Source of the DNA: Synergistales bacterium
GTDB lineage: Bacteria > Synergistota > Synergistia > Synergistales > Aminiphilaceae
Length of the DNA stretch: 54,597 nucleotides
Direction: 5' to 3'
Assembly (NCBI GenBank): GCA_021736445.1
Contig: JAIPGA010000007.1
Location: forward strand, 1 to 54,597
Shown: positions 5,344 to 19,998 of the stretch, piece by piece
Layout of the letters: each line of letters opens with the position of its first letter
Numbering within the stretch: position 1 is the first letter of the stretch
Translations under genes and position numbers: made by a program
The notes under the pieces: generated by a model
The model's database searches: none
What the model was told of the DNA's origin: nothing
What the model saw: only the letters and a program-made list of their open reading frames with translations

Positions 5344-5529
5344 TCATACTCCTTTGTGACGCAGGCTGTGTTGCGTTTTCCCCGGATTCCCCGGTTTCCC
5401 CGCGGTGTGACGGTTCCTGTTGCGAAAATCCCGCCTTTCTGTCTGATGCAAAGCGGCGATAATTTGCTACAATGAAAGCATCGAGCGATAGGGTCATCCG
5501 GGAGGAACGCGAAGAGAGGGGTGCTCCAT

Positions 5530-8500
5530 ATGGCAAAGCGTCTGCTGGTGGTCTGTATGACGATAGCGGTTCTGGTGGGGTCGGTGCTGCCCGCTGCGGC
5601 GGCCGGGCCCGGACTGGTGGGGGGCATCGTGGATTTCTACAGCAAGCCCTCCACGTATCTGGTTCGTCTGGGGAGCGACGCCGACGCGCTCTACGAAAGG
5701 CTCCAGCAGTGGCGGCGCCAGTATCCCGACGCCCCGGTGGACGCGCCGTTGCTGCTCCCCGGGCGTATGCTCACCCCCCAGATGGCGGAGGAGCTGCGGG
5801 AGGCGCTGAAGGGGATCGACCCGGCGGCGCTGGAAGAGGTCGGCGTCACGGTGGACGGGAAGAACGGCGTCACCTTTGTGGGGGTGAACCTCAAGACCTT
5901 CTTCGACGAGGCCGTGAAGGGGGTGGATCTCTACAGGGGGCTGACCCAGGGCGACGAGGCCCAGGCGGTGCTCGGCCAGTACGCCCAGCATGTCTCCACC
6001 CTGGACGACGTGATGGACGCGGCGGGGCTCTACGTGGATGTCCAGAAGAAGGACAAGGAGATCGAAGAGGCCCAGCTCAGCGAGGGGCGGACCAGGGCCA
6101 TGCGCGGGGTGATCTTCGGCGCCACGGCCTACAAGAGCGTCACCCGGATCGGTCTGAAGGTGACGAAACTGGGGAATGTGCCGGTGGTGGGTTCCAAGGT
6201 CAAGGGCTTTCTCGACAGCTGCGCCGACGCCATCTTCGGCGGGTTCATGGCCTGGGCCGAGCGCCACCAGCGGGTGGACAACTGCATCGAGGACCCCATG
6301 AACTGCGATCTCGGCGGTTCCCGCCCCGGAGCGGACCATCCCGACGACACACGGAACGTGGCCCCCGGCGTGGTCTTCACCGGCCGGGGGGAGCGGGCCC
6401 TCTACGCCGGGGCGCGCCGGAAGGGCTACGACGTGATGACCTGGCTGCTGGCAGCGGACCGGGCGCTGGAGGGACACAGGGCCTACCAGGTGCCGGAGCT
6501 CGACCCGGTGGCCCGGGGGTTCATGCTGGACATGATCGGCGTCCTCGACGGCATGGCCATGCCGGAGGACGCCGCCTTCAGTGCCGAGGAGTGGCGGGAG
6601 AGCAAGGCATCCTACCGGGAGATCATGCTGCAGATGGCCACCGCACCGGATATCGCCGTCCTGGGCGGCGGCTCGGCCCGCGGGGTGTTGGCGCTGCTCT
6701 CGCAGACGGGACACCCGGCGACGCTGGTCCGGGGCTGGACGGACCCCTCGCTGCTGGCGCGGTTCCCCCTCCTGATCATCCCCTCCGGCGCACTGGACCA
6801 CTGGTCCACCTCACCCGTTCTGGCCGGAAGGCTGGCGGCCTATGTGGAGCAGGGCGGCACGCTGGTCTCCTTCACCCAGCCCCGGGGGAGGCTCTTCGGG
6901 ATGCTCCCCGGCGGTCTGGAGGGGTACGGCTGGGCGGAGGACCAGAGCTGTCACTTCGCTTCCGCCGCCATCACCCATACTGCCGGGGCCTTCGCCTCCC
7001 AGGAGGAGGAACACCCCGACGTCAGCGTAGACGGCTACTTCCTCCGCTATCCCCTGGCGGCGGAGATCTGGCTCACCAGAACGAAGAACGGCCAGCCCTG
7101 CATGCTGGCCTATCCCCTCGGTGCAGGGCGGGTGGTGGCCTCCACGCTCTTTCTGGACTGGGCGGAGGTGAACCACCAGGGGACGGAGAGCGAGTACCTC
7201 CTCTTCCGGGATACGGTGGACGCGGCACTGGCGGGAGAGGTGCCCGTCGCCGGCGGGGAGACCATCCCCCTCACCCTGGAGGTGCGCAACCTCTTCTTCG
7301 ACCCCTCCGTACGGGTGCAGGCCCGGATCACCGACGCTGAAGGCGTGCAGACCGCCCTGCCCGTGCAGGAGGCGGAGATTCCGCCCATGGAGACGGCCCG
7401 GGTGGATCTGGGCGGGGTCCCTCTCCCCCGTCCCGGGTACTTCAGACTCTCCTACTCGGTGGAGACCGCCGACGGGATCCACGCCGGGGACCACTACCAG
7501 GGCTACGTGGCCTGCCGGAATGTCCAGCCCCTGGCGGAGATCGACAGGAGGGGGGTGGACCTCTCCGTTCAGAGCGATCTGGATACCTATCTGCTCGGTA
7601 TGGAGGGGACCTTCACCATCCATCTGTGGAACCACGGCGACACGGACCGGAACCTCCGTGTGGACTACCGCTTCCCGCACAACCGTCGCTACGCCGAGGA
7701 CCGCGGCCTCTATCAGCAGAGTGTGGAGCGTACCGTGGCCGCAGACGGGGAGGAGCAGATCACCCTCACGCTGCCGGTGGTGAACAAGGACGGCATCGAC
7801 CGGCTCTGGGTCAAGGTCTACGACGCCGGGAGCGGCGAGCAGCTGGCCGCCGGCTCCAAGGGCTTCTACACCGAGGAGCCGGAGACGACGGCCGTCCTGT
7901 CCCCGGATATCGGCGACGGGCCCCTCCGCACCGGCGGCGCACTGCCCTTCACCTTCGCCTGGGCGAACCCCTACGGCGAGCCGGTGAACGCCACGCTCCG
8001 CTTCCAGGTGGTGGACAGCGCGGGCGGGGTCCTGGCCGAGACGGAGCGGTCCGCCCGGGTGGAGGAACGTTTCGAGGAGGAGGTGACGCTGGCGCTCCCG
8101 GATGAGGCCTTCTCCGGACAGGCCACGGTGCAGTGTTTCGTGGAGTCCGCCGGACGGGTGATCGGCCGGGGACAGGCCCACTTTCCTCTCCTCGGGCCGA
8201 CGCACGACTGTTCGGGCCGGGTGGTTGATCTCTTCAGCGGCGAGGCTGTGCCGGAGGCCCGTCTGGCCTTCCACCTGGGAGAGATGGTCTACGAGGCGGT
8301 GACGGACGCCGGGGGCGACTTCGCCGTGCGGCTCCCCGCCGGCGCCTTCAACCTGGAGATCACCGCCCCCGGCTACAACACCTTCGCAACGGCCGCGACA
8401 CTGGACTCCGCCTCCGGACAGGCCGGTCTCTGGCAGCTGGTGCCCAGGGGCGAGAGCGCCGGAACGGGGCGGGTCCACGGCGTGGTCCGCGACAAGGTGA

Positions 8501-11500
8501 CCGGACAGCCCGTTCCCTTCGCCGAGCTGGCGGTCCACGGCAAGCGGGACCTCTCCGTCACGGCCGACCGGAGCGGGCGCTACAGCATGGCCCTGCCTGC
8601 GGGGAGATACGATGTCCGCGTGGTCACCGAGGGGGTCCCCTCGGGCGAACAGTTCCGGCTGGAGGTTCTGGAGGGGCTCTCGCTGCGCTCCGATCTGGTG
8701 GTCCGCCGCGACGCCCTGCGTTTCGACGTGCGGGACGCCGTCACCGGCGAACCGCTCCCTGGAGCCACAGTGGTGCTGGAACACCGGCGCGACCGGGTCT
8801 CCTTCGACCACATCCCTTCGGCGGAGCGGGTCTTCCGGGTGGCCGCCCGGGGCGAGTGGAAGGCCCGGGTGCGCCGGGAGGGCTACCGGGAGCTGGAAAC
8901 GGAGCTCTACGCCAGCCGGCGTCCCACCACCCACAGCTTCTACCTCCGGAAGAAGGCATACCCCTTCACCCTTGTCTTCCGCTCATTCCTCGGCGATCTG
9001 CCCCTGGAAGGGGTCTCCCTCACGGTGGAGGAGAAGCGCGGCAAGGAGCGCCGGAGCCTCGCCACCGACGACCAGGGGCGAGTAACGGGCGAGCTCCCCG
9101 AGGGGCGGTGGGTGCTCAGGGCCGAGAAGCGGGGCTACCGGACGCTGGAGACGGAGCTCCGCCACGGTCCCTGGAGCGACGCGCCCCAGAATCACTACCT
9201 CCGCCGGGAGCGCTTCCCCTGCACCGTCAGGGTGCTGGGCTACGAATCCGGCGAAACGGTGAGCGGTGTCTCCCTCAGTCTGGAGCAGGCCCGCGGCGAC
9301 GGAGAGAGGGAGGCGACCACCGGCGTGGACGGCGAGGCCGGCTTCGATCTCGCCCCGGGCCGCTGGAAGATCGCCTTCGAACGCGACGGCTACCGACAGC
9401 AGGAGACCGAGTTCTTCCACAGCGCCAATGCCCGGGGACGCACCGACACCTACTATCTCCTGGAGGAGCGCACCGGCACGCTGCCGCTGGAGGTCCGGGA
9501 TCTGGTGACCGGCGAGTTGCTGCCGGATGTGCAGATCGCCCTGCGGCATCGGTGGAACGACCAGGAGGAGATCACAAAGAGCGACGTCGAAGGGAGGGCG
9601 GCGTTCGACACCTCCGAAGGGCGGATCTCCCTGGTCTTCGACCGGGAGGGCTACCGCAAGCTGGAGACGGAGTGTTTCTACAGCCACCGTGACGAGACGC
9701 TGCGCACCTTCTACCTGCATCCCGCGGAGCGGACGCTTCCGCTGCAGGTGGCGCATCTCCAGACCGAGGAGCCGCTGGAGGGGGTGCAGGTCCTGGTCCG
9801 CAGCGGGAACGAGTGGGTCTCCCGGGGCGCCACCGACGCAGACGGGAGGGTGACCCTGCGGCTTGCCAACGGACGGCAGCAGCTTCGCTTCCTCAAGGAG
9901 GGCTTTATCCAGCAGGAGACGGAGTTCTTCCTCCAGAGCGCCTCTCCCCCGCCGGAGCGCCGGCGGGTCTACCTCATCGAACACCGCACACCCTTTGTCG
10001 GACGGGTGGTGGACCATGCCGGCACCCCCATTCCGGACGTGGAGGTGCTGCTGCAGCAGGGGAAGGACGAGAAGAAGCTGATCCGCACCGGCCCCGACGG
10101 GGGCTTTACCGAGGAGCTGCTCCTCGGTCGCTACGAGGTGCAGCTGTCGGCTGAAGGCTATCTCCCGGGGAAGACCCAGATCTATGCTGGCCGGGCCCAG
10201 GAGCCCGGCGAGTGGCGCTTTGTGCTGGAGCGGAAGGACGCCGAGCCCCGGGAGGGCAGGGGCAACGTGATCTACCACCTCTACGACGCCGTCACCGGGG
10301 AGCCGCTGGAGGGATTCAGCTACCGCCACGGCGGCTGGCACAGCGCAGCGGGCGCCACGGTGCGTCTCGAGGCGGACGGGGGCAACCACCGGACCCAGTT
10401 CAACGCCCCGGGCTACCACGACAGCGGCACCTTCTACCCCGCCACCTATCCCGGGATGACCTGCCGCCGCCGCATCTTCCTCTGGCCCAAAGACGGCGAG
10501 ACAGTCTACACCGTGCGGGACGCCCTTACCGGCAACAAGCTGGACCGCTTCTGGGGCTTCACCGAACGGGACAAGTGGCGGATCCGTGTGGGCGGCATCC
10601 TGCGCCGTCCGGCGGACTACGGGAAGGAGCGGCTGCAGATCAACGCCCCGGGCTACCACGGGACGGACTATTTCTACCCCGCCGGGTATCCGGGTCGGAG
10701 GGTGGCCCGCCAGATCTATCTCACGCCGAAGGAGGGGCGTATCATCTACCACCTCTACGACGCCCTCACCCTGGAACGGCTCCCCCTCTTTGCGGGCTAC
10801 CACCAGCGGGGCGACTGGCGTCCCGTGGAGGGCGGCGTCATGACCGTCACCGCCGAGCCCGGCCACAAGCGGACCGACTTCAACGCCACCGGGTACCATG
10901 GGACAGGCGCCTTCTACCCGGAGACCGTGCCGGGAAGGACGCTGGAGCGCTCCATCTACCTCTGGCCCACCACCGGAGCGATCCGTTTTACGGTGCACGA
11001 CGCCCTCACCGGCGACCCTGTCGAGCCGGTCTCCACCTACTTCGACCGCCGGGACTGGGGCGATTCGCCGGCGGCCTTTACGGAAGAGGGCGACGACGAC
11101 AACCACCGGACGGAGATCAACCACGTGGACTACCACGACACCGGCGCCTTCTACCCCCGGCCCTATCCGGGCCGTCTGGTCAGCAGGGACATCGCTCTCT
11201 GGCCGCGTCTGGGGACCGTCACCGTCCGTCCGGTGGACGCCCTGACAGGGAAGGTCATCGGTCCGGTGAGCTCCTTCTGGGATCCCCGGAACTGGCGGCG
11301 CGCCACCGGCGTCTTTACCGTGGAGGGCGGTGACGACAACGAGCGGATGGAGATCAACATGCCGGGTCACCACGGCATCGGGGCCTTCTATCCCAGGGCC
11401 TATCCCGGCAAGGATGTCACCCGCACCTACGCCCTCTGGCCGAGCCGCGGCGCCCAGCATATCCGGGTGCTGGACCTCCTGACAGGCGAACCGGTGGAAA

Positions 11501-13380
11501 ACGCCGGGGCCGATCTCTACGGGCAGGGCGGCTGGCGGCTCTTCGGCGGCGGAACGACGGCCGCGCTGGGCGACGGCAACCGGCGGCTCAATGTGGTGGC
11601 GCCGGGCTACCTCGATGCGGGGGACTGGCATCCCCCGATCTTCGGCGGTCGGGAACTCCTGCGGGAGCTCTATCTCGTTCCCGAAAAACAGGAGAGCCGG
11701 GTCACCGTGAAGGTCACAGACAGCGTTACCGGCAAGCCGCTGGCGGGCGCCCGGGTCTACGAGGGGGGCGACCTCCGGGGGCGCACCGGCTTTGACGGCG
11801 AGGTGCGCCTCACCACAGAAACGCGCTTCGACCGCCGGCGCTACCGGGCCGAGGCCGAGGGCTACCACCGCCGCGACCTCACCGCCAATGTGGCGGGAAA
11901 TCAGGAATCGGTGCTGGTGACCATCCCCCTGGACGAACGGATCGGCCGGGGCAAGGGCTCCGTGGCCGTTTCGGTGGCTGCATCCGGGGGCGCGGCGCTG
12001 GACCAGGCCGAGGTGACCCTCAGGAAGGGGTCCGACACGCACACCTCGCTTTCCACCTCAGCGGGACAGGCGAGCTTCAGCGACATCGAGACGGGGATCT
12101 ACACCCTTTCGGTGAGCCGTGAGGGCTACCTGCCGGAGAGCCGGAGGGTGGCGCTGCGGCCGGAGCGCCGACCCAGGGTGTCGCTGCGGCTGGAAGCCCT
12201 GGAGGCCAGTGGGCGTCCGGAGCCCTTCACCCCGGTTATCGCGGCCCTGGAGGGCCCTGCAACGCTGCGCGCCGGCGAGACAGGACGCTGCCGGCTGGTG
12301 GTGGAGAACCGCGGCGACCTCTCCGGGCACCCCCGCTGTGTCCTGGAGGCGCCGGGCATCCCCAGGCAGGAGCGCCCTCTGTCGCTCCGTCCCGGCGAGA
12401 GCCGGGAGCTCCTCTTCAACCTGGAGATCCCGGCCGACGCCCCGGGCGGCAATCTGCCGCTGCGCTTCTCCGTGGGCGGGGTGGAACGGACCTTCACGGT
12501 CGTCGTGGACGCCAGGCCCGTCGAGGTGACCCCCAGGCTGGACAAGCCCTTCTACCGACCCGGGGAGACGGCCTCGCTGGAGCTCGCCGTCCACCTGGAG
12601 GACAACAGCGAGCCGATTCCCCTCTTCTGGCGGGTGACCTTCGGCGGCTTCACCGACAGGGGATCCTTTGTCCTGACCTCCGAGGACACCACGGTGACGG
12701 TGCCGGAGATCCCCGTCTCCTTCAGGGGGAGCAAGCTTGTCTACGGCCTCTACTATGAGAACGGCAGCGCCATCGTGCTGGACGCCCTCTACGTGAATCC
12801 CGCCACGGGCATCCGCATCCGGAGCGACCGACAGCGCTACGAATCCGGTGAAGAGGTGACGCTGTTTCTCAACGGGAAGCCGGATTCGGCGGTGTTGCTG
12901 GAGAGCCCGCTCTTCGAAGGGGAAGCCCGGGTTCCGCTCTCTGCGGAGGGCTCCGGCACCTATGCCTTCTATCTCCCCCACCGGGTTGCCACGGGGAGCT
13001 ACCCAGTCCGGGTCGGCGGCCTGCCCATGCTCAATGTCGATGTGGCCGGTATGGGAGTGACCCTCCGGGATCAGCGTCTTCTGCCCCCGGAGATCCCGGA
13101 AACCGCCCTCTCCGATGAGGTGGGCAGACAGGAGTACACCGTCGCGCTGGAGCTGGACAGCCCGATGCCGATGCGCCTGGACTGGGAGATCTACGCCGAG
13201 GGCGTCGGCGGCAGCGAACGGGTCGGCCACGGCCGGCGCGATCTGGAGGAGGGCCGGCAGGTGCAGGAGTTTGTGCTCACCCTGGAGGCGGAACGCTACC
13301 GGCTCCTCCGCTTCAAGGGCTACACCGACACCGCCCTGGGCCGCGAGCTCATGCTGGGTGTGCCCCTGAGTCTCCGGTAG
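5530..13380 (+). CDS. Giant secreted multi-repeat beta-sandwich protein
   Basis: A 2616-residue exported protein of unknown function. A signal peptide (MAKRLLVVCMTIAVL to AAAA, about residues 1-25) starts it. Residues about 30-370 match nothing I recognise. About 372-566 resemble a class-I glutamine-amidotransferase-like flavodoxin fold (AVLGGGSARGVLALL, then LLIIPSGALDHW), without an evident catalytic cysteine. Beta-sandwich modules follow, then two carboxypeptidase-regulatory-like domains (about 895-1060), array A (1063-1577, six units), array B (1578-2056, six units), two more such domains (2057-2230) and NEW3/CARDB-like modules to the end. There is no C-terminal membrane anchor or sortase motif. 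The ATG at 5530 is preferred because GAGAGGGG precedes it; an in-frame GTG lies at 5521. It is flanked by its own hairpin terminator and is probably monocistronic. A periplasmic or surface scaffold or adhesin is a guess. Confidence 0.85.
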   Translation: MAKRLLVVCMTIAVLVGSVLPAAAAGPGLVGGIVDFYSKPSTYLVRLGSDADALYERLQQWRRQYPDAPVDAPLLLPGRMLTPQMAEELREALKGIDPAALEEVGVTVDGKNGVTFVGVNLKTFFDEAVKGVDLYRGLTQGDEAQAVLGQYAQHVSTLDDVMDAAGLYVDVQKKDKEIEEAQLSEGRTRAMRGVIFGATAYKSVTRIGLKVTKLGNVPVVGSKVKGFLDSCADAIFGGFMAWAERHQRVDNCIEDPMNCDLGGSRPGADHPDDTRNVAPGVVFTGRGERALYAGARRKGYDVMTWLLAADRALEGHRAYQVPELDPVARGFMLDMIGVLDGMAMPEDAAFSAEEWRESKASYREIMLQMATAPDIAVLGGGSARGVLALLSQTGHPATLVRGWTDPSLLARFPLLIIPSGALDHWSTSPVLAGRLAAYVEQGGTLVSFTQPRGRLFGMLPGGLEGYGWAEDQSCHFASAAITHTAGAFASQEEEHPDVSVDGYFLRYPLAAEIWLTRTKNGQPCMLAYPLGAGRVVASTLFLDWAEVNHQGTESEYLLFRDTVDAALAGEVPVAGGETIPLTLEVRNLFFDPSVRVQARITDAEGVQTALPVQEAEIPPMETARVDLGGVPLPRPGYFRLSYSVETADGIHAGDHYQGYVACRNVQPLAEIDRRGVDLSVQSDLDTYLLGMEGTFTIHLWNHGDTDRNLRVDYRFPHNRRYAEDRGLYQQSVERTVAADGEEQITLTLPVVNKDGIDRLWVKVYDAGSGEQLAAGSKGFYTEEPETTAVLSPDIGDGPLRTGGALPFTFAWANPYGEPVNATLRFQVVDSAGGVLAETERSARVEERFEEEVTLALPDEAFSGQATVQCFVESAGRVIGRGQAHFPLLGPTHDCSGRVVDLFSGEAVPEARLAFHLGEMVYEAVTDAGGDFAVRLPAGAFNLEITAPGYNTFATAATLDSASGQAGLWQLVPRGESAGTGRVHGVVRDKVTGQPVPFAELAVHGKRDLSVTADRSGRYSMALPAGRYDVRVVTEGVPSGEQFRLEVLEGLSLRSDLVVRRDALRFDVRDAVTGEPLPGATVVLEHRRDRVSFDHIPSAERVFRVAARGEWKARVRREGYRELETELYASRRPTTHSFYLRKKAYPFTLVFRSFLGDLPLEGVSLTVEEKRGKERRSLATDDQGRVTGELPEGRWVLRAEKRGYRTLETELRHGPWSDAPQNHYLRRERFPCTVRVLGYESGETVSGVSLSLEQARGDGEREATTGVDGEAGFDLAPGRWKIAFERDGYRQQETEFFHSANARGRTDTYYLLEERTGTLPLEVRDLVTGELLPDVQIALRHRWNDQEEITKSDVEGRAAFDTSEGRISLVFDREGYRKLETECFYSHRDETLRTFYLHPAERTLPLQVAHLQTEEPLEGVQVLVRSGNEWVSRGATDADGRVTLRLANGRQQLRFLKEGFIQQETEFFLQSASPPPERRRVYLIEHRTPFVGRVVDHAGTPIPDVEVLLQQGKDEKKLIRTGPDGGFTEELLLGRYEVQLSAEGYLPGKTQIYAGRAQEPGEWRFVLERKDAEPREGRGNVIYHLYDAVTGEPLEGFSYRHGGWHSAAGATVRLEADGGNHRTQFNAPGYHDSGTFYPATYPGMTCRRRIFLWPKDGETVYTVRDALTGNKLDRFWGFTERDKWRIRVGGILRRPADYGKERLQINAPGYHGTDYFYPAGYPGRRVARQIYLTPKEGRIIYHLYDALTLERLPLFAGYHQRGDWRPVEGGVMTVTAEPGHKRTDFNATGYHGTGAFYPETVPGRTLERSIYLWPTTGAIRFTVHDALTGDPVEPVSTYFDRRDWGDSPAAFTEEGDDDNHRTEINHVDYHDTGAFYPRPYPGRLVSRDIALWPRLGTVTVRPVDALTGKVIGPVSSFWDPRNWRRATGVFTVEGGDDNERMEINMPGHHGIGAFYPRAYPGKDVTRTYALWPSRGAQHIRVLDLLTGEPVENAGADLYGQGGWRLFGGGTTAALGDGNRRLNVVAPGYLDAGDWHPPIFGGRELLRELYLVPEKQESRVTVKVTDSVTGKPLAGARVYEGGDLRGRTGFDGEVRLTTETRFDRRRYRAEAEGYHRRDLTANVAGNQESVLVTIPLDERIGRGKGSVAVSVAASGGAALDQAEVTLRKGSDTHTSLSTSAGQASFSDIETGIYTLSVSREGYLPESRRVALRPERRPRVSLRLEALEASGRPEPFTPVIAALEGPATLRAGETGRCRLVVENRGDLSGHPRCVLEAPGIPRQERPLSLRPGESRELLFNLEIPADAPGGNLPLRFSVGGVERTFTVVVDARPVEVTPRLDKPFYRPGETASLELAVHLEDNSEPIPLFWRVTFGGFTDRGSFVLTSEDTTVTVPEIPVSFRGSKLVYGLYYENGSAIVLDALYVNPATGIRIRSDRQRYESGEEVTLFLNGKPDSAVLLESPLFEGEARVPLSAEGSGTYAFYLPHRVATGSYPVRVGGLPMLNVDVAGMGVTLRDQRLLPPEIPETALSDEVGRQEYTVALELDSPMPMRLDWEIYAEGVGGSERVGHGRRDLEEGRQVQEFVLTLEAERYRLLRFKGYTDTALGRELMLGVPLSLR
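8716..10260 (+). repeat. Array A: six ~81-91-residue coding repeats
   Basis: Six consecutive units start near 8716, 8959, 9214, 9475, 9730 and 9988. Each is a carboxypeptidase-regulatory-like fold: a V-x-D-x-x-TGE-x-L opening strand, a DG-turn, then an R-E-GYR-x-LETE-x-F-type close and an aromatic FYL-type end. Units are diverged, so duplication is not recent. Confidence 0.8.
10261..11695 (+). repeat. Array B: six ~78-82-residue coding repeats
   Basis: Six units start near 10261, 10495, 10735, 10975, 11212 and 11449. Each opens with a Y-x-V-x-DALTG-type strand and has a central W, then an N-x-x-GYHGTGAFYP-type motif, YPGR and an I-x-LWP close. The array directly abuts array A, but the consensus is different. 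Confidence 0.85.
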
Positions 13381-13554: not shown

Positions 13555-14331
13555 ATGAATGGCAGACAGAAACGCATCGGACTGGCGCTGGGAGGCGGCG
13601 CGGTGCTGGGTGGGGCCCATATCGGCGTGATCCGTGCGCTGGAGGAGGCGTCGATCCCCATACACGCCCTGGCCGGAACGAGCATCGGCGCCCTGGTCGG
13701 CGCGCTCTATGCCTTTGGCAAGAGCTGGGAAGAGCTGCTGGAGATCGCCGAAGAGATCGACTGGTTTTCCGTCTCCCGCTTCGCGCCCTCCCAGTACGGG
13801 TTGCTCTCCAACGAACGGATCCGCGATGTCATGCACCGCGCTCTCGGCGAGGTGACCATCGAGGAGGCTCCGATTCCCATGGCCATTGTGGCCGCCGACA
13901 TCGGTTCGGGGGAGAAGGTGGTGCTCCGCCAGGGCGACGTGGGCGACGCCGTCATGGCCAGTACCTGTATCCCCGGGGTCTTCGCCCCGGTGACCATGAA
14001 CGACAGGATGCTCATCGACGGCGGCCTGGTGGAGAATGTGCCGGTCCACTCCCTCCGGCGGCTCTGCGTTGACAGGACCATCGGTGTGGACCTCTACGCC
14101 CGCCACCGGCTGAGCAAACCGGGCAATATCATCGAGCTGCTGCACAATGTCGCCAGCGTCAAGCTGATCCACGCCTCCACACTGGAGCGGTCGCCGGTGG
14201 ATCTGCTGATCGCCCCGGATCTCTCCGATTTCAACGCCTTCGACACCGACCAGCTCCCGCAGCTGGTCGAAGAAGGCTACCGGGAGGCCCGGAAGCGCCT
14301 TCCGCTTCTCCTGGAAGGGGAGTCCCTGTAG
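13555..14331 (+). CDS. Patatin-like phospholipase (RssA/YlbK type)
   Basis: A 258-residue patatin-fold serine hydrolase. GLALGGGAVLGGAHIGV (about residues 9-25) is the oxyanion glycine loop, GTSIG (about 42-46) holds the nucleophile serine, and DGGLVENVP near residue 160 gives the catalytic aspartate of the Ser-Asp dyad. Length and layout match bacterial single-domain patatins of the RssA group, which are cytoplasmic lipid acyl hydrolases of uncertain substrate. There is no signal peptide. The ATG has an AGGGGG SD. The isochorismatase-like gene follows after 80 bases and could share its transcript. Confidence 0.9.
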   Translation: MNGRQKRIGLALGGGAVLGGAHIGVIRALEEASIPIHALAGTSIGALVGALYAFGKSWEELLEIAEEIDWFSVSRFAPSQYGLLSNERIRDVMHRALGEVTIEEAPIPMAIVAADIGSGEKVVLRQGDVGDAVMASTCIPGVFAPVTMNDRMLIDGGLVENVPVHSLRRLCVDRTIGVDLYARHRLSKPGNIIELLHNVASVKLIHASTLERSPVDLLIAPDLSDFNAFDTDQLPQLVEEGYREARKRLPLLLEGESL

Positions 14332-15065: not shown

Positions 15066-15291
15066 CGCGGGGTATCCCGGCGCTGTTCGAGAGAGCCTGT
15101 GCGGATACGGCGGAAGGTCGTCCGGCAGCCGGTGTGGTGCGCCGTGCGACCTTCTACGTTGTCTCTGTGACGTCATGTGGCCGGATTGGTCAGTAGGTCA
15201 AATAAGGGGCATTCGGTACGAATTCCGCCCGAAAACGGCATTATCTGTCCATAACAAGCCGCCAGCGCCTGAAATTGACCTTATCTGATCT
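15066..15291. other. Intergenic region before hsp20
   Basis: No gene is visible on the plus strand here. An 8-base inverted repeat (15113-15120 with 15147-15154) may help end the upstream transcript. The 3' tail of the minus-strand DUF ORF enters at 15241. Confidence 0.4.
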
Positions 15292-16899
15292 TTGACTAAA
15301 ACTAACCAATAGGCTATGATGACCCTGCAAACGAAGGAGAGAGCTCCTTCGCAAAACAGCGATCAAGGAGGGAGTTCCAAGATGAGACAGCTGCAGAGGT
15401 ATCGTAGACCGTCGATGTTTACCATTCCGGAAGTGGAGGATATGTTCAAGAGCGTTTCGGATGTGTTCTCCATGGCGAACAGGGAGTTCCCCATGGAGAT
15501 GTACGAGGAGGACAATGCACTCGTTGTCTCCATCGATGCGCCTGGGTACAAGCCCGAGGATATCGAGATCCGTTCCTTCGCCGACAAGCTCTTCGTGAAG
15601 GCGAAAGAGGAAGTCGAAGAGGAGTGCGACGAAAGCGAGGCGCGGACCTACCACTGCCGGAAACGCCGTTCGGCGTTGAACTACAGCATCAATCTTCCGC
15701 TGGAGGTCAACCCCGACAATGTGAAGGCCACTGTGAAAAACGGTGTTGTATCTGTACGTCTCCCCAAGAAAGAGGAGCAGGTCGGCAAGGTCGTCGAGGT
15801 CGAAGGCGAGGAGTAGTCCCCGAACGGCTCCCATGCGGATAACAAGACAGGCGAAATCCTCTCCGATCAAGCGCCGGATGAGGGCGTTGCGGGCTTCCTT
15901 CAGCTTGTCCCCCTGATCGCTCAGCTTGTCCACGGTGATCCCCTTCTCCGTGATGAGGGGCTTCAGACTGGAGGCCAGCAGCGGTGAGGTCACCTCGATG
16001 CTTGCCGGGCACGCCTCCTGTTCGATGCAGAAACCGGCGAAGCGCTCGAGGATACGTTGACCGATCTCCTCGTCGGGGCCGACCATGTCGGCACCGACGA
16101 GTGCCCCGTCCTCCCTGTCGATAGCGATCATCGTGAGCGGGGAGTAGGGGCGCAGGGGGTCCTCGTTGATCTGCGCGGGGGTGACGAAGGTGTCGACCTG
16201 CCAGCTCCCCGTCCCTTCCGGGAAGAGGTTCAGCGCCTTCTTCGCCTGGTCGGTCAGTACGGTTTCCGGAGCGAGATAGGGGCCGGCGTCAACGGCGCCG
16301 CGCCGCCGCGTTTCTTTCCATTGCCCCGTTTCTTTCTCCTGCTGCATTACCAGGAGGTATTCGGCCGATTCGCCGCGGAGCGAGAGCTCCTCGTTGCGCA
16401 CCCTTCCGGCCACCGCCAGCGCTTCCTCCAGGGTGAGCGCCAGGTCCTCGGCCTCCTGCGAGTTCAGCCAGCGGTCACTCTGCAGCGGCAGCTGGGAGCG
16501 GAACTGGGGGATGCCCAGTTCGCTCTCTCCACCGCTTCCGTGTTCCACCAGCGTGGCCCGGTCCCGCTCGGAGAGCATGCGCTCCGGTGCGAAGAGGAGC
16601 AGCAGATGGTCCAGCGTGAGCTGGAACTCCAGGGTCTGGCGGGTATGCCCCCGCTGTGCCAGCATGTAGTTGACCAGTCCGCGGTCGCCTCTGTAGACGG
16701 CGAAGCCGAAGATCTTGCCTGCCTTCCCCAGGAAGGTGCAGTAGTTGACTTGATCGGACACCGGCGAATGAACACCGAAGATGTCGCCGTCGGCCATCCA
16801 CTCCCAGGGGGCTGCTTCACGCAGCTGTTCCGTCAGCTGATAGAGTCGTTGCCACTGCTTCCCGCCGGGTGTGTCCTCTGTCACCCTGTTGTCGGTCAT
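15241..16899 (-). CDS. Uncharacterised protein (DUF6930/DUF7309-like), probably read-through
   Basis: An open frame of 552 residues from an ATG with AAGGTGG 6 bases upstream. The first ~355 residues look like a soluble alpha/beta protein with an acidic helical stretch and an RPYSPLTMIAIDREDGALVGADMV segment, resembling uncharacterised DUF6930/DUF7309-type proteins; I give no function. The last ~197 residues are encoded antisense to the complete hsp20 gene and read like translated complement (FLFRLHEELV). The natural end is probably near 15830, where a stop seems to have been lost; all three minus-strand frames are open across 15800-15850. A convergent, overlapping pair of transcripts is implied. 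Confidence refers to the N-terminal part. Confidence 0.6.
   Translation of the reverse strand: MTDNRVTEDTPGGKQWQRLYQLTEQLREAAPWEWMADGDIFGVHSPVSDQVNYCTFLGKAGKIFGFAVYRGDRGLVNYMLAQRGHTRQTLEFQLTLDHLLLLFAPERMLSERDRATLVEHGSGGESELGIPQFRSQLPLQSDRWLNSQEAEDLALTLEEALAVAGRVRNEELSLRGESAEYLLVMQQEKETGQWKETRRRGAVDAGPYLAPETVLTDQAKKALNLFPEGTGSWQVDTFVTPAQINEDPLRPYSPLTMIAIDREDGALVGADMVGPDEEIGQRILERFAGFCIEQEACPASIEVTSPLLASSLKPLITEKGITVDKLSDQGDKLKEARNALIRRLIGEDFACLVIRMGAVRGLLLAFDLDDLADLLLFLGETYRYNTVFHSGLHIVGVDLQRKIDAVVQRRTAFPAVVGPRLAFVALLFDFLFRLHEELVGEGTDLDILGLVPRRIDGDNECIVLLVHLHGELPVRHGEHIRNALEHILHFRNGKHRRSTIPLQLSHLGTPSLIAVLRRSSLLRLQGHHSLLVSFSQRSDKVNFRRWRLVMDR
15292..15320 (+). promoter_or_regulatory. Sigma-70 promoter of hsp20
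   Basis: TTGACT (15292-15297), a 17-base spacer and TATGAT (15315-15320) give a near-consensus promoter about 62 bases before the hsp20 start codon. I see no CIRCE-type inverted repeat. Confidence 0.8.
15382..15816 (+). CDS. Small heat shock protein Hsp20/alpha-crystallin
   Basis: A 144-residue ATP-independent holdase chaperone. The alpha-crystallin domain occupies about residues 35-135: EMYEEDNALVVSIDAPGYKPEDIEI opens it, and NPDNVKATVKNGVVSVRLPK holds the closing strand with the usual A-x-x-x-NGVL-type box. The N-terminal region is short and the C-terminal tail is acidic. The ATG has AAGGAGGG about 9 bases upstream, and the promoter at 15292-15320 is strong. The whole gene lies antisense to the 3' portion of the neighbouring minus-strand ORF. 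Confidence 0.95.
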   Translation: MRQLQRYRRPSMFTIPEVEDMFKSVSDVFSMANREFPMEMYEEDNALVVSIDAPGYKPEDIEIRSFADKLFVKAKEEVEEECDESEARTYHCRKRRSALNYSINLPLEVNPDNVKATVKNGVVSVRLPKKEEQVGKVVEVEGEE

Positions 16900-17006
16900 G
16901 GTCAGCCACCTTTCGGCCCTCTCCATCTGTGGAGGAGGAGGGCGCGGAATGCTCTACTCTCTTCCGGGGCATTGTATGACAATCCGGCAACGTTGACAAA
17001 CAGCTT

Positions 17007-17084: not shown

Positions 17085-17780
17085 ATGGAATGCCACATTG
17101 CGCAAACATTCCGGGAGCTCTTCCCGGAAGCCCATATAGGTGTCGTGGTTGTGCGGGGTATCGCCAATCATGCATCGGACCCTGCGGCGGCCATGCTGCG
17201 GGAGGCCTGCGAACGGGTAGGCGCGCAGTACAGGGGTGTCCCCCTGGCCGAAGACCCGCACATCGCCCCCTGGAGGGAGGCCTACAGGGCCTTCGGGGCG
17301 CCAAAGGGGGTCCGATCCTCCATCGAGAGCCTGCTCAGGAGGGTTCGCAAAGGAAAGCCCATTCCCTCCATCAATCCGCTGGTGGATATCTACAATGCCG
17401 TATCCCTGGAATACCGGCTTCCCTGCGGCGGCGAGGATCTGGACGCCCTGCAGGGAAGTCTGGAGCTCGCCAGGGCCAGGGGCGACGAACCCTTTGTTCC
17501 GCTGGGCGAAAAGGAGAACGACCCGCCCGCCCCGGGCGAGGTGATCTACCGGGATGAAGCCGGTGCCGTCTGCCGCTGCTGGAACTGGCGTGAGGCGGAG
17601 CGCACCAGGCTGACCCCCGAAACCACCGATGCCGTGCTGGTGGCGGAATCCCCCGGCGGCGGTACGGAGCTCCCCGAAACCCTGGCGGAACTGGAGCGCC
17701 GGGTGGTGTCGCTGCTGGGAGGTACCACAGCGTCACGGGTTCTGACACGGGACGAACCGCACTGGGACTGCGACCGCTGA
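17085..17780 (+). CDS. B3/4 domain protein (PheT editing-domain-like)
   Basis: A 231-residue stand-alone B3/4 protein, related to the editing domain of phenylalanyl-tRNA synthetase beta. Typical features are the central SIESLLRRVRKGKPIPSINP stretch with the LVDIYNAVSLEYRLPCGGEDLD block (about residues 100-140), then a region ending near residue 215. Family members are thought to hydrolyse mischarged or free aminoacyl compounds, but most are uncharacterised. The ATG has GCAGGA close upstream. It is the first gene of a probable three-gene operon, 55 bases ahead of the PLD-VTT gene. The contextual link to lipid-type hydrolases is unexplained. Confidence 0.85.
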   Translation: MECHIAQTFRELFPEAHIGVVVVRGIANHASDPAAAMLREACERVGAQYRGVPLAEDPHIAPWREAYRAFGAPKGVRSSIESLLRRVRKGKPIPSINPLVDIYNAVSLEYRLPCGGEDLDALQGSLELARARGDEPFVPLGEKENDPPAPGEVIYRDEAGAVCRCWNWREAERTRLTPETTDAVLVAESPGGGTELPETLAELERRVVSLLGGTTASRVLTRDEPHWDCDR

Positions 17781-17835
17781 TGGAGAGGGACGGCGTTTCT
17801 CCGTTCCCGAGGAAGGGGGTGCCGGGAGGACCGTG

Positions 17836-19998
17836 ATGACCACAGAGGATCCATTCTTCGTAGAGGGCCGGAACTGCTGGAAGCGAGCCTTCGCCCACCG
17901 CCTGGCCTTTCTGGTGGATGGCGATGCCTACTTCTCGGCCGTTGTCTCGGTGCTGCAGCGCGCCAGACGCTCCATCTTCATCGTCGGCTGGGAGATGGAC
18001 AGCCGGGTGCCGCTGTTGCGAGGCCCGGAGGCCGGACGGTCCCGCTACCGGCTGAGCGAATTCCTCAACACCCTGGCGGCGAAAAAGCCGGAACTCCATA
18101 TCTATGTGCTGCTCTGGGATTTCTCCATGATCTACGCCCTGGAGCGGGAGAATTTCCCCGTCTTCCGTCTGGGCTGGAAGACCCACCGCAGGGTGCACTT
18201 CCACCTCGACGGCGAACACCCCGTGGGGGCCTCGCACCACCAGAAGATCGTCGTGGCCGATGGCGCCGTGGCCTTCACCGGCGGACTGGACCTCACCCGC
18301 CGCCGCTGGGACACGCCGGAGCACCCTTTCGAGCAGCCCCTCCGGAGGGATCCCGGCGGGAAGACCTATGGCCCCTTCCACGATGTCCAGGCCATGGCCG
18401 ACGGCGAGGTGGCCCGTCATCTGGAGGAGCTGGCCCGGGAGCGGTGGTACCGGGCTACGGGGGAGCGCCCCAGGCGGATGGGGCCCACCGGCAGGGACAT
18501 CTGGCCCCGCCGGATCGAACCGGAGATCACCGACGCCGGCGTTGCCGTAGCGCGGACCATGCCGGCGCACAGCGCATATCCCGAAATCCGCGAGGTGGAG
18601 GCCCTCTGTGGGGATATCCTCCGTGCCGCGAAGGGGTATATCTATATCGAGAACCAGTATCTCACCTCCACCCTGGTGGAGGAGATCCTCACCGACCATC
18701 TCCAGTCGCCCCAGGGTCCGGATATCCTCCTGATGCTGGCGCAGCACGATTTCGGTCTTCTCGAACAGGGGGCCATGGGCGGTCTGGGTTCGCGTCTTCT
18801 CCAGCGCCTCCTGGAGGCCGACCGCTATGGCCGATTGAAGGTCTGCTTCCCCGTAGTCCGGGGCGGTGAAGGACAGGAGGCGGCGATCAAGGTGCACTCC
18901 AAGGTGCTCATCGTCGACGATGCCCTGCTGCGGGTAGGGACCTCCAACATGAACAACCGCTCCATGGGGCTCGACACGGAGTGCGATCTGGCGCTGGAGG
19001 CCTGGAGCGATCCGCGGCTGGAGGAGTCGATCCGGGCGTTCCGGAACCGTCTGATCGGTGAACATCTCGATGTCTCCCCGGAGGCGCTCCAGAAGGCGGT
19101 GGAGCGCGAGGGATCGCTGCTGCGGGGGATCGCCTCGCTGCCCTGGGGGGAGCGCAAGTATGTCTACCCCATGGAGGTCGACGTTCCCCGCTGGTTCGAT
19201 GTGGTGCCGCTGAACGAGGAGCTTCTCGATCCCGAGCGGCCGGTGACCAAGGAGGAGATCCTCGAGAAATTCCTGCCCGAACCTGGGCGGGAAGGGGCGC
19301 AGCGGGGCCCGTTGCTGCAGCTTCTGCTCTTCGCCGCCCTGCTTGGGGGGATGGCCCTGGCCTGGCGCTATACGGGACTCCAGGAGGTTGTCAACCTGGA
19401 GGAGGTGATCCGCTGGGTACAGCGGGCGCAGGGGTTGCCCGGCTCCAATGCCGCGGTGATCGGGGTCTTCCTGCTGGGCAGCCTGACGGCCTTTCCGCTG
19501 ACCCTGCTGATCGTCGCCACCGCCTTCGTCTTCGATTCCTTCCATGCCTTCACGCTGGCCATGACGGGCAGCCTGGCGGGGGCCTACGCCAGCTATATGC
19601 TGGGGCACAAGATGGGCCGGGACATGGTCCGCCGGCTGGCCGGACAGCGGATCAACCGGCTGAGCCGAAGGCTGGCGCGGCAGGGCATCGCCGCCGTGGC
19701 GGTCATCCGGCTGCTTCCTCTCGCTCCCTTCACGATCATCAATGTGGTGGCCGGGGCGTCGCACATCAACCTCCGGGACTTCATGCTCGGCAGTCTGCTG
19801 GGGTTGGTGCCGGGTGTGGCGGCCATGACGATCTTCACCGAGCAGCTCCGGAATGTGATGATGCATCCCACCCCCGGGAATATCCTCGGCCTGCTGGGCA
19901 TCGCCTTCGGTGTCGGCGGGATGGGATATCTGCTGCGGCGCCTGCTGAACCGCCGGGAGGAGAAGAAGCGCGCCCGTGAGGCCCGGGGGATGCGATGA
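17836..19998 (+). CDS. Phospholipase D-like/VTT domain fusion membrane protein
   Basis: A 720-residue fusion. The N-terminal ~480 residues carry two PLD motifs: ASHHQKIVVADGAVAFTGG near residue 135 and KVHSKVLIVDDALLRVGTSN near 355, both H-x-K-x4-D, so phosphatidyl-transfer or phosphodiesterase chemistry is expected. A hydrophobic segment near 490-510 leads to a VTT/SNARE-associated (DedA-type) membrane domain at about 530-700 with FPLTLLIVATAFVF and the glycine-rich ASYMLGHKMGR helix, ending in a basic tail. The arrangement suggests lipid turnover at the membrane or cardiolipin-synthase-like chemistry. The ATG follows GGGAGGA by 5 bases; a GTG directly before it is an alternative. The next gene overlaps the stop (ATGA). 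Confidence 0.88.
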   Translation: MTTEDPFFVEGRNCWKRAFAHRLAFLVDGDAYFSAVVSVLQRARRSIFIVGWEMDSRVPLLRGPEAGRSRYRLSEFLNTLAAKKPELHIYVLLWDFSMIYALERENFPVFRLGWKTHRRVHFHLDGEHPVGASHHQKIVVADGAVAFTGGLDLTRRRWDTPEHPFEQPLRRDPGGKTYGPFHDVQAMADGEVARHLEELARERWYRATGERPRRMGPTGRDIWPRRIEPEITDAGVAVARTMPAHSAYPEIREVEALCGDILRAAKGYIYIENQYLTSTLVEEILTDHLQSPQGPDILLMLAQHDFGLLEQGAMGGLGSRLLQRLLEADRYGRLKVCFPVVRGGEGQEAAIKVHSKVLIVDDALLRVGTSNMNNRSMGLDTECDLALEAWSDPRLEESIRAFRNRLIGEHLDVSPEALQKAVEREGSLLRGIASLPWGERKYVYPMEVDVPRWFDVVPLNEELLDPERPVTKEEILEKFLPEPGREGAQRGPLLQLLLFAALLGGMALAWRYTGLQEVVNLEEVIRWVQRAQGLPGSNAAVIGVFLLGSLTAFPLTLLIVATAFVFDSFHAFTLAMTGSLAGAYASYMLGHKMGRDMVRRLAGQRINRLSRRLARQGIAAVAVIRLLPLAPFTIINVVAGASHINLRDFMLGSLLGLVPGVAAMTIFTEQLRNVMMHPTPGNILGLLGIAFGVGGMGYLLRRLLNRREEKKRAREARGMR

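Follow-up and report, generated by a model that had tools for sequence, protein, structure and literature searches.

The window analysed here, a 54,597-nucleotide contig from a Synergistota bacterium, encodes a giant protein of 2616 amino acids with two arrays of repeated units, A and B, lying back to back. The original prediction had found the motif of array B unlike any beta-sandwich family that could be named, and had pictured the two arrays as a rigid rod built by stepwise duplication. This raises two questions: what domain does array B consist of, and what kind of protein is built from these parts?

Export signal, array A and overall build

The giant protein is encoded by a single open reading frame that occurs once in its genome (Table 1), with an in-frame GTG 9 bases upstream of the start, at 5521. 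Its Sec-type signal peptide is the sole strong hydrophobic segment in all 2616 residues, and the hydrophobicity of the whole protein reveals no C-terminal anchor or transmembrane segment. Thus, the expectation of an exported protein with no anchor stands. A sortase signal is absent, SLH and outer-membrane domains were not observed, and no NCBIfam model reaches its cut-off against the protein.

Table 1. Features of the giant protein and its gene (positions in the window; aa, residues of the protein)
Feature	Position	Strand	Basis
Coding sequence of the giant exported protein (2616 aa)	5530..13380	+	ORF, single copy in genome
Signal peptide MAKRLLVVCMTIAVLVGSVLPAAAA, SPase I type, without lipobox at the cleavage site	5530..5604	+	Sequence; sole strong hydrophobic peak
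PGADHPDD motif, conserved, predicted disordered (aa 266-273)	6313..6348	+	D269 and D272 in 20/20 relatives; pLDDT <50
Head with a class-I amidotransferase-like / GH42 domain-B-like fold (aa ~375-570); motifs TQPRG (FAQQHG in relatives), GYGWAEDQSC, VDGYFLRYP, RTKNGQPCM	6652..7239	+	Model, Z 17.5 to 8hx9 and 17.4 to 5xb7; alignment
Beta domains following the head, Ig/macroglobulin-like (aa ~571-892)	7240..8205	+	Model; weak A2M/C3 MG-domain profile matches
Pair of canonical CarboxypepD_reg units preceding array A (aa ~895, ~982)	8212..8715	+	Pfam PF13620
Array A, six units of the GYRxLETE type, transthyretin-like (aa 1063-1570)	8716..10239	+	Pfam, unit profiles
Array B, six units of the GYHGTGAFYPxxYPGR type, diverged transthyretin-like (aa 1579-2055)	10264..11694	+	Unit profiles, A-B profile alignment, model
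Pair of transthyretin-like units following array B (aa ~2056, ~2143)	11695..12195	+	Pfam CarboxypepD_reg/PEGA
C-terminal Ig/MG2-like region, without anchor	12235..13377	+	Weak MG2, A2M_BRD and NPCBM_assoc matches below curated cut-offs; no TM segment

The Pfam family CarboxypepD_reg (PF13620) matches the whole protein in 10 stretches (E 2.5e-79, 262 bits against a cut-off of 32.3), and in array A and the flanking units single stretches exceed the curated cut-off. By its sequence profile, array A consists of consecutive carboxypeptidase-regulatory-like (transthyretin-like) units, which start at aa 1063, 1146, 1231, 1318, 1403 and 1487 (spacing 83-87); the sixth carries GYLPGKTQ in place of GYRxLETE. 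Array B abuts it, with units starting at aa 1579, 1657, 1737, 1817, 1896 and 1975 (spacing 78-81).

Identity and copy number of array B

Curated sequence families miss array B despite its known fold. A Pfam search of the region at E values up to 10 reported no family, PF13620 included, and a sequence search of the array B profile against PDB chains gave no match. The repeats are nevertheless far beyond chance, since a search with a profile of the six window units picked up three other proteins, each with five or six units (E 4e-12 to 5e-24). Comparison of the B and A profiles was weak when six units each were used (38%) and decisive with 22 and 27 units: with units drawn from four proteins, the profiles aligned over their full length at 97.3% (E 1.7e-11, score 57.7), whereas the reversed profile scored 11.0 and the best of 100 column shuffles 16.2. 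Units B2-B4, modelled with AlphaFold2 from a nine-row alignment, reached a pLDDT of 88.1 and a pTM of 0.69. In this model the central unit can be overlaid on human carboxypeptidase D's transthyretin-like domain (5aq0) with Z 11.9 and 1.8 A over 79 residues of the 81-residue chain, and the match to the corresponding domain of the duck enzyme (1qmu) has Z 11.6.

Because the A-B alignment rises above its controls and the model superposes on known domains, array B is, as judged by profile and predicted structure, a diverged subfamily of array A's transthyretin-like domain. Asp, Trp, Gly and Pro are invariant at its unit positions 8, 27, 66 and 77. The idea of an unnameable family is thereby overturned, and an apparently unknown fold gives way to a carboxypeptidase-regulatory-like subfamily that sequence libraries had missed. 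Other parts of the original prediction fare better: its two abutting six-unit arrays are supported by the unit starts and by the recovery of units in relatives, and the high pLDDT of the B2-B4 model agrees with units that fold separately as beta domains. The extent of the arrays needs amending, as two units before A and two after B bring the run to about 16 transthyretin-like units, not 12. A rigid rod is still something that we infer, because the geometry between units is only moderately certain at this pTM.

How did the arrays arise? There are six A and six B units in the window protein and in that of locus L011, and five and five in those of L008 and L007. Equality thus recurs, but six copies per array are not universal, and the equal counts amount to one contrast between two lineages; equality alone shows no constraint. 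In a pair of close species, units at the same position are most alike (83%, against a mean of 69%), whereas across families the window and L011 units tend to cluster with others of their own protein, at weak to moderate support. Units 2-5 of L011 are near-identical, at up to 94%. Based upon these three observations, the array sequences fit tandem duplication followed by turnover, which lends partial support to the stepwise duplication originally proposed.

The head domain, its relatives and their gene neighbourhoods

Near the N-terminus lies a domain that we call the head. Pfam has no match in the first 894 residues, and no family in Pfam or NCBIfam, enzyme families included, covers the head. 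A model of aa 262-895 from 20 sequences (pLDDT 82.6) gives the head the class-I glutamine amidotransferase fold that had been predicted to precede the arrays, with Z 17.5 to a GATase-containing synthase (8hx9) and Z 17.4 to a GH42 enzyme (5xb7); GH164 and related glycosidases are further fold neighbours. In an amidotransferase, the elbow that follows the GG-strand would carry a nucleophilic Cys (GxCxG), but the corresponding column, aa 449, located by strand order and motif rather than by superposed coordinates, holds T, S, A or G in 20/20 relatives. Thus, the head is probably no longer an amidotransferase. In the same 20 relatives the polar residues D269, D272, Q450, D471, C474, D501, R517, N520 and D543 are invariant; from their conservation, they may form a catalytic or binding site, in which case the head would not be inert. 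The PGxDxPDD motif at window 6313-6348 is predicted to be disordered, yet is kept from bacteria to archaea.

The head is the best-conserved part of the protein across distant relatives, and its motifs PGxDxPDD and GYGWxEDQSC are common to many bacteria and archaea. A contig scan that used the whole-protein alignment, with its patterns falling in the head, found 27 loci with a head, in Synergistaceae, Paenibacillus, Methanosarcina, a haloarchaeon, Deltaproteobacteria, Nitrospirota, Chloroflexota, Aminicenantes and others; viral contigs encode no relative. In other bacterial and archaeal relatives, this head is combined with different beta domains or with propellers (MG2, CARDB, NHL, FG-GAP). 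Among 188 Synergistota genomes, six carry array B and exactly these six match the head strongly; three more match the head alignment only weakly and in part. Eleven of 12 other head-bearing genomes lack array B, and the twelfth has a single weak match. Array B was seen in Synergistaceae only, and always with the head, although outside the profile-searched genomes the contig scan would have missed a head-less array B, the array B alignment alone having no sufficiently conserved stretch. A second genomic match to the array B DNA pattern, at L001, sits in a radical-SAM-like gene and is a chance match.

Some relatives differ in build. The giant proteins at L007:6014-15370 and L008:7979-16588 have about 600 extra residues N-terminal to the head, with the motif EKEFLNSGSAPKTPxSDxDxTExKPG; this region has no Pfam match in the L007 protein, the one searched, and the L007 protein ends in a TPR-like tail. 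The copy in genome G047 (L074:4864-13469) is split across several reading frames, by assembly error or decay. A TPR protein is encoded directly upstream of the giant gene at L007 (5088-6122), at L008 (6224-7997) and in G047, preceded in the latter two by an M48 peptidase; no counterpart of either was found beside the window gene. In the window, a patatin-like phospholipase gene lies directly downstream on the same strand (13555-14331). On the minus strand, 15241-16926 encodes a protein that contains the uncharacterised domains DUF7309 and DUF6930, and 17371-19866 is an 831-aa reading frame without a Pfam match, whose status as a gene is uncertain. We found no conserved gene partner common to the window and its relatives that would constrain the function.

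Possible roles and known systems

The reading that we favour, and think probable, is a Sec-exported multidomain stalk, in which a pseudoenzyme-like head is followed by about 16 transthyretin-like units and by Ig/macroglobulin-like domains, with A and B as tandem-expanded subfamilies. The protein would leave the cytoplasm by Sec export and would carry its amidotransferase-fold head near the N-terminus, joined to the long beta-domain chain; arrays A and B, expanded by tandem duplication, would set the length of the stalk. Its shape would be extended and its place the cell envelope or the outside of the cell, where it could act as a scaffold or adhesin, and the role of the head may be structural or adhesive. 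The absent anchor is compatible with a periplasmic, surface-bound or secreted fate, and adhesin, scaffold and envelope-connector roles are indistinguishable from the present sequence and models.

Alternatively, the head could be an active secreted enzyme or a module that binds, for example, glycans through its invariant EDQSC/DGYF/RxxN cluster, with the arrays serving solely to display or target the head. At least eight polar positions kept in all 20 bacterial and archaeal relatives, the conservation of the head over all other parts, and its glycosidase fold neighbours argue for such activity. In GH42 enzymes, however, the domain that matches the head is not the catalytic barrel, and the giant protein has no barrel; together with the missing amidotransferase Cys and the lack of a Pfam or NCBIfam enzyme match, this makes an active head unlikely. 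We give still less credence, and consider very unlikely, the combined proposal that the head is an unrecognised, widespread family with a functional site of its own (the PGxDxPDD tail and GYGWxEDQSC) and that side-by-side packing of rods holds A and B equal in Synergistaceae (6/6 or 5/5), equal copy number then being a structural constraint.

Two further readings concern the stalk itself. Instead of an adhesin, the protein could be a connector or an S-layer-like structural component of the diderm envelope. Its very large size, its beta-rod build and its having a signal peptide only would suit such a role, and the transthyretin-like part weakly matches the NCBIfam model of an anammox S-layer glycoprotein; yet that match scores 35.5 against a cut-off of 1400 bits and involves generic repeats only, SLH and outer-membrane domains were not seen, and strong head matches in 6/188 Synergistota genomes are too few for a common envelope component. 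We regard this role as quite unlikely. That array B units, and possibly those of A, are intramolecularly cross-linked adhesin domains is highly improbable, even though TIE, a multidomain surface protein, is the top Foldseek match of the B2-B4 model and CnaB/SpaA-type pilin domains are also among the best structural matches: no Lys column reaches 50% among 27 array B units (highest 12/27), so that, judged by Lys columns, the conserved Lys that would accompany an Asn/Asp and an acidic partner is missing, and unit by unit the carboxypeptidase transthyretin-like domains match better.

The stalk that we favour thus consists of parts mostly of known type, joined to a head whose family and job are undescribed; a literature search found no description of the protein or its family. 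This broad, unannotated head family of giant exported proteins spans Synergistota, Paenibacillus, Deltaproteobacteria and methanogens, and its invariant residues are testable. Compared with class-I amidotransferases and domain B of GH42 beta-galactosidases, the head is alike in fold, but has its own motifs, no Cys at the expected nucleophile position and no glycosidase barrel. The TIE and CnaB surface proteins and pilins of Gram-positive bacteria are likewise exported and built of tandem beta-sandwich units of similar fold, but the giant protein belongs to a diderm phylum, has no sortase signal and lacks the conserved isopeptide Lys in array B. Another close likeness is to the carboxypeptidase regulatory-like domain (PF13620/PF13715) and the transthyretin-like domain of metallocarboxypeptidase D. 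Although no carboxypeptidase is attached and array B has a motif of its own (an invariant Trp and GxFYPxxxPGR) that Pfam does not detect, array A and its flanks match this domain in profile and array B matches it in fold.
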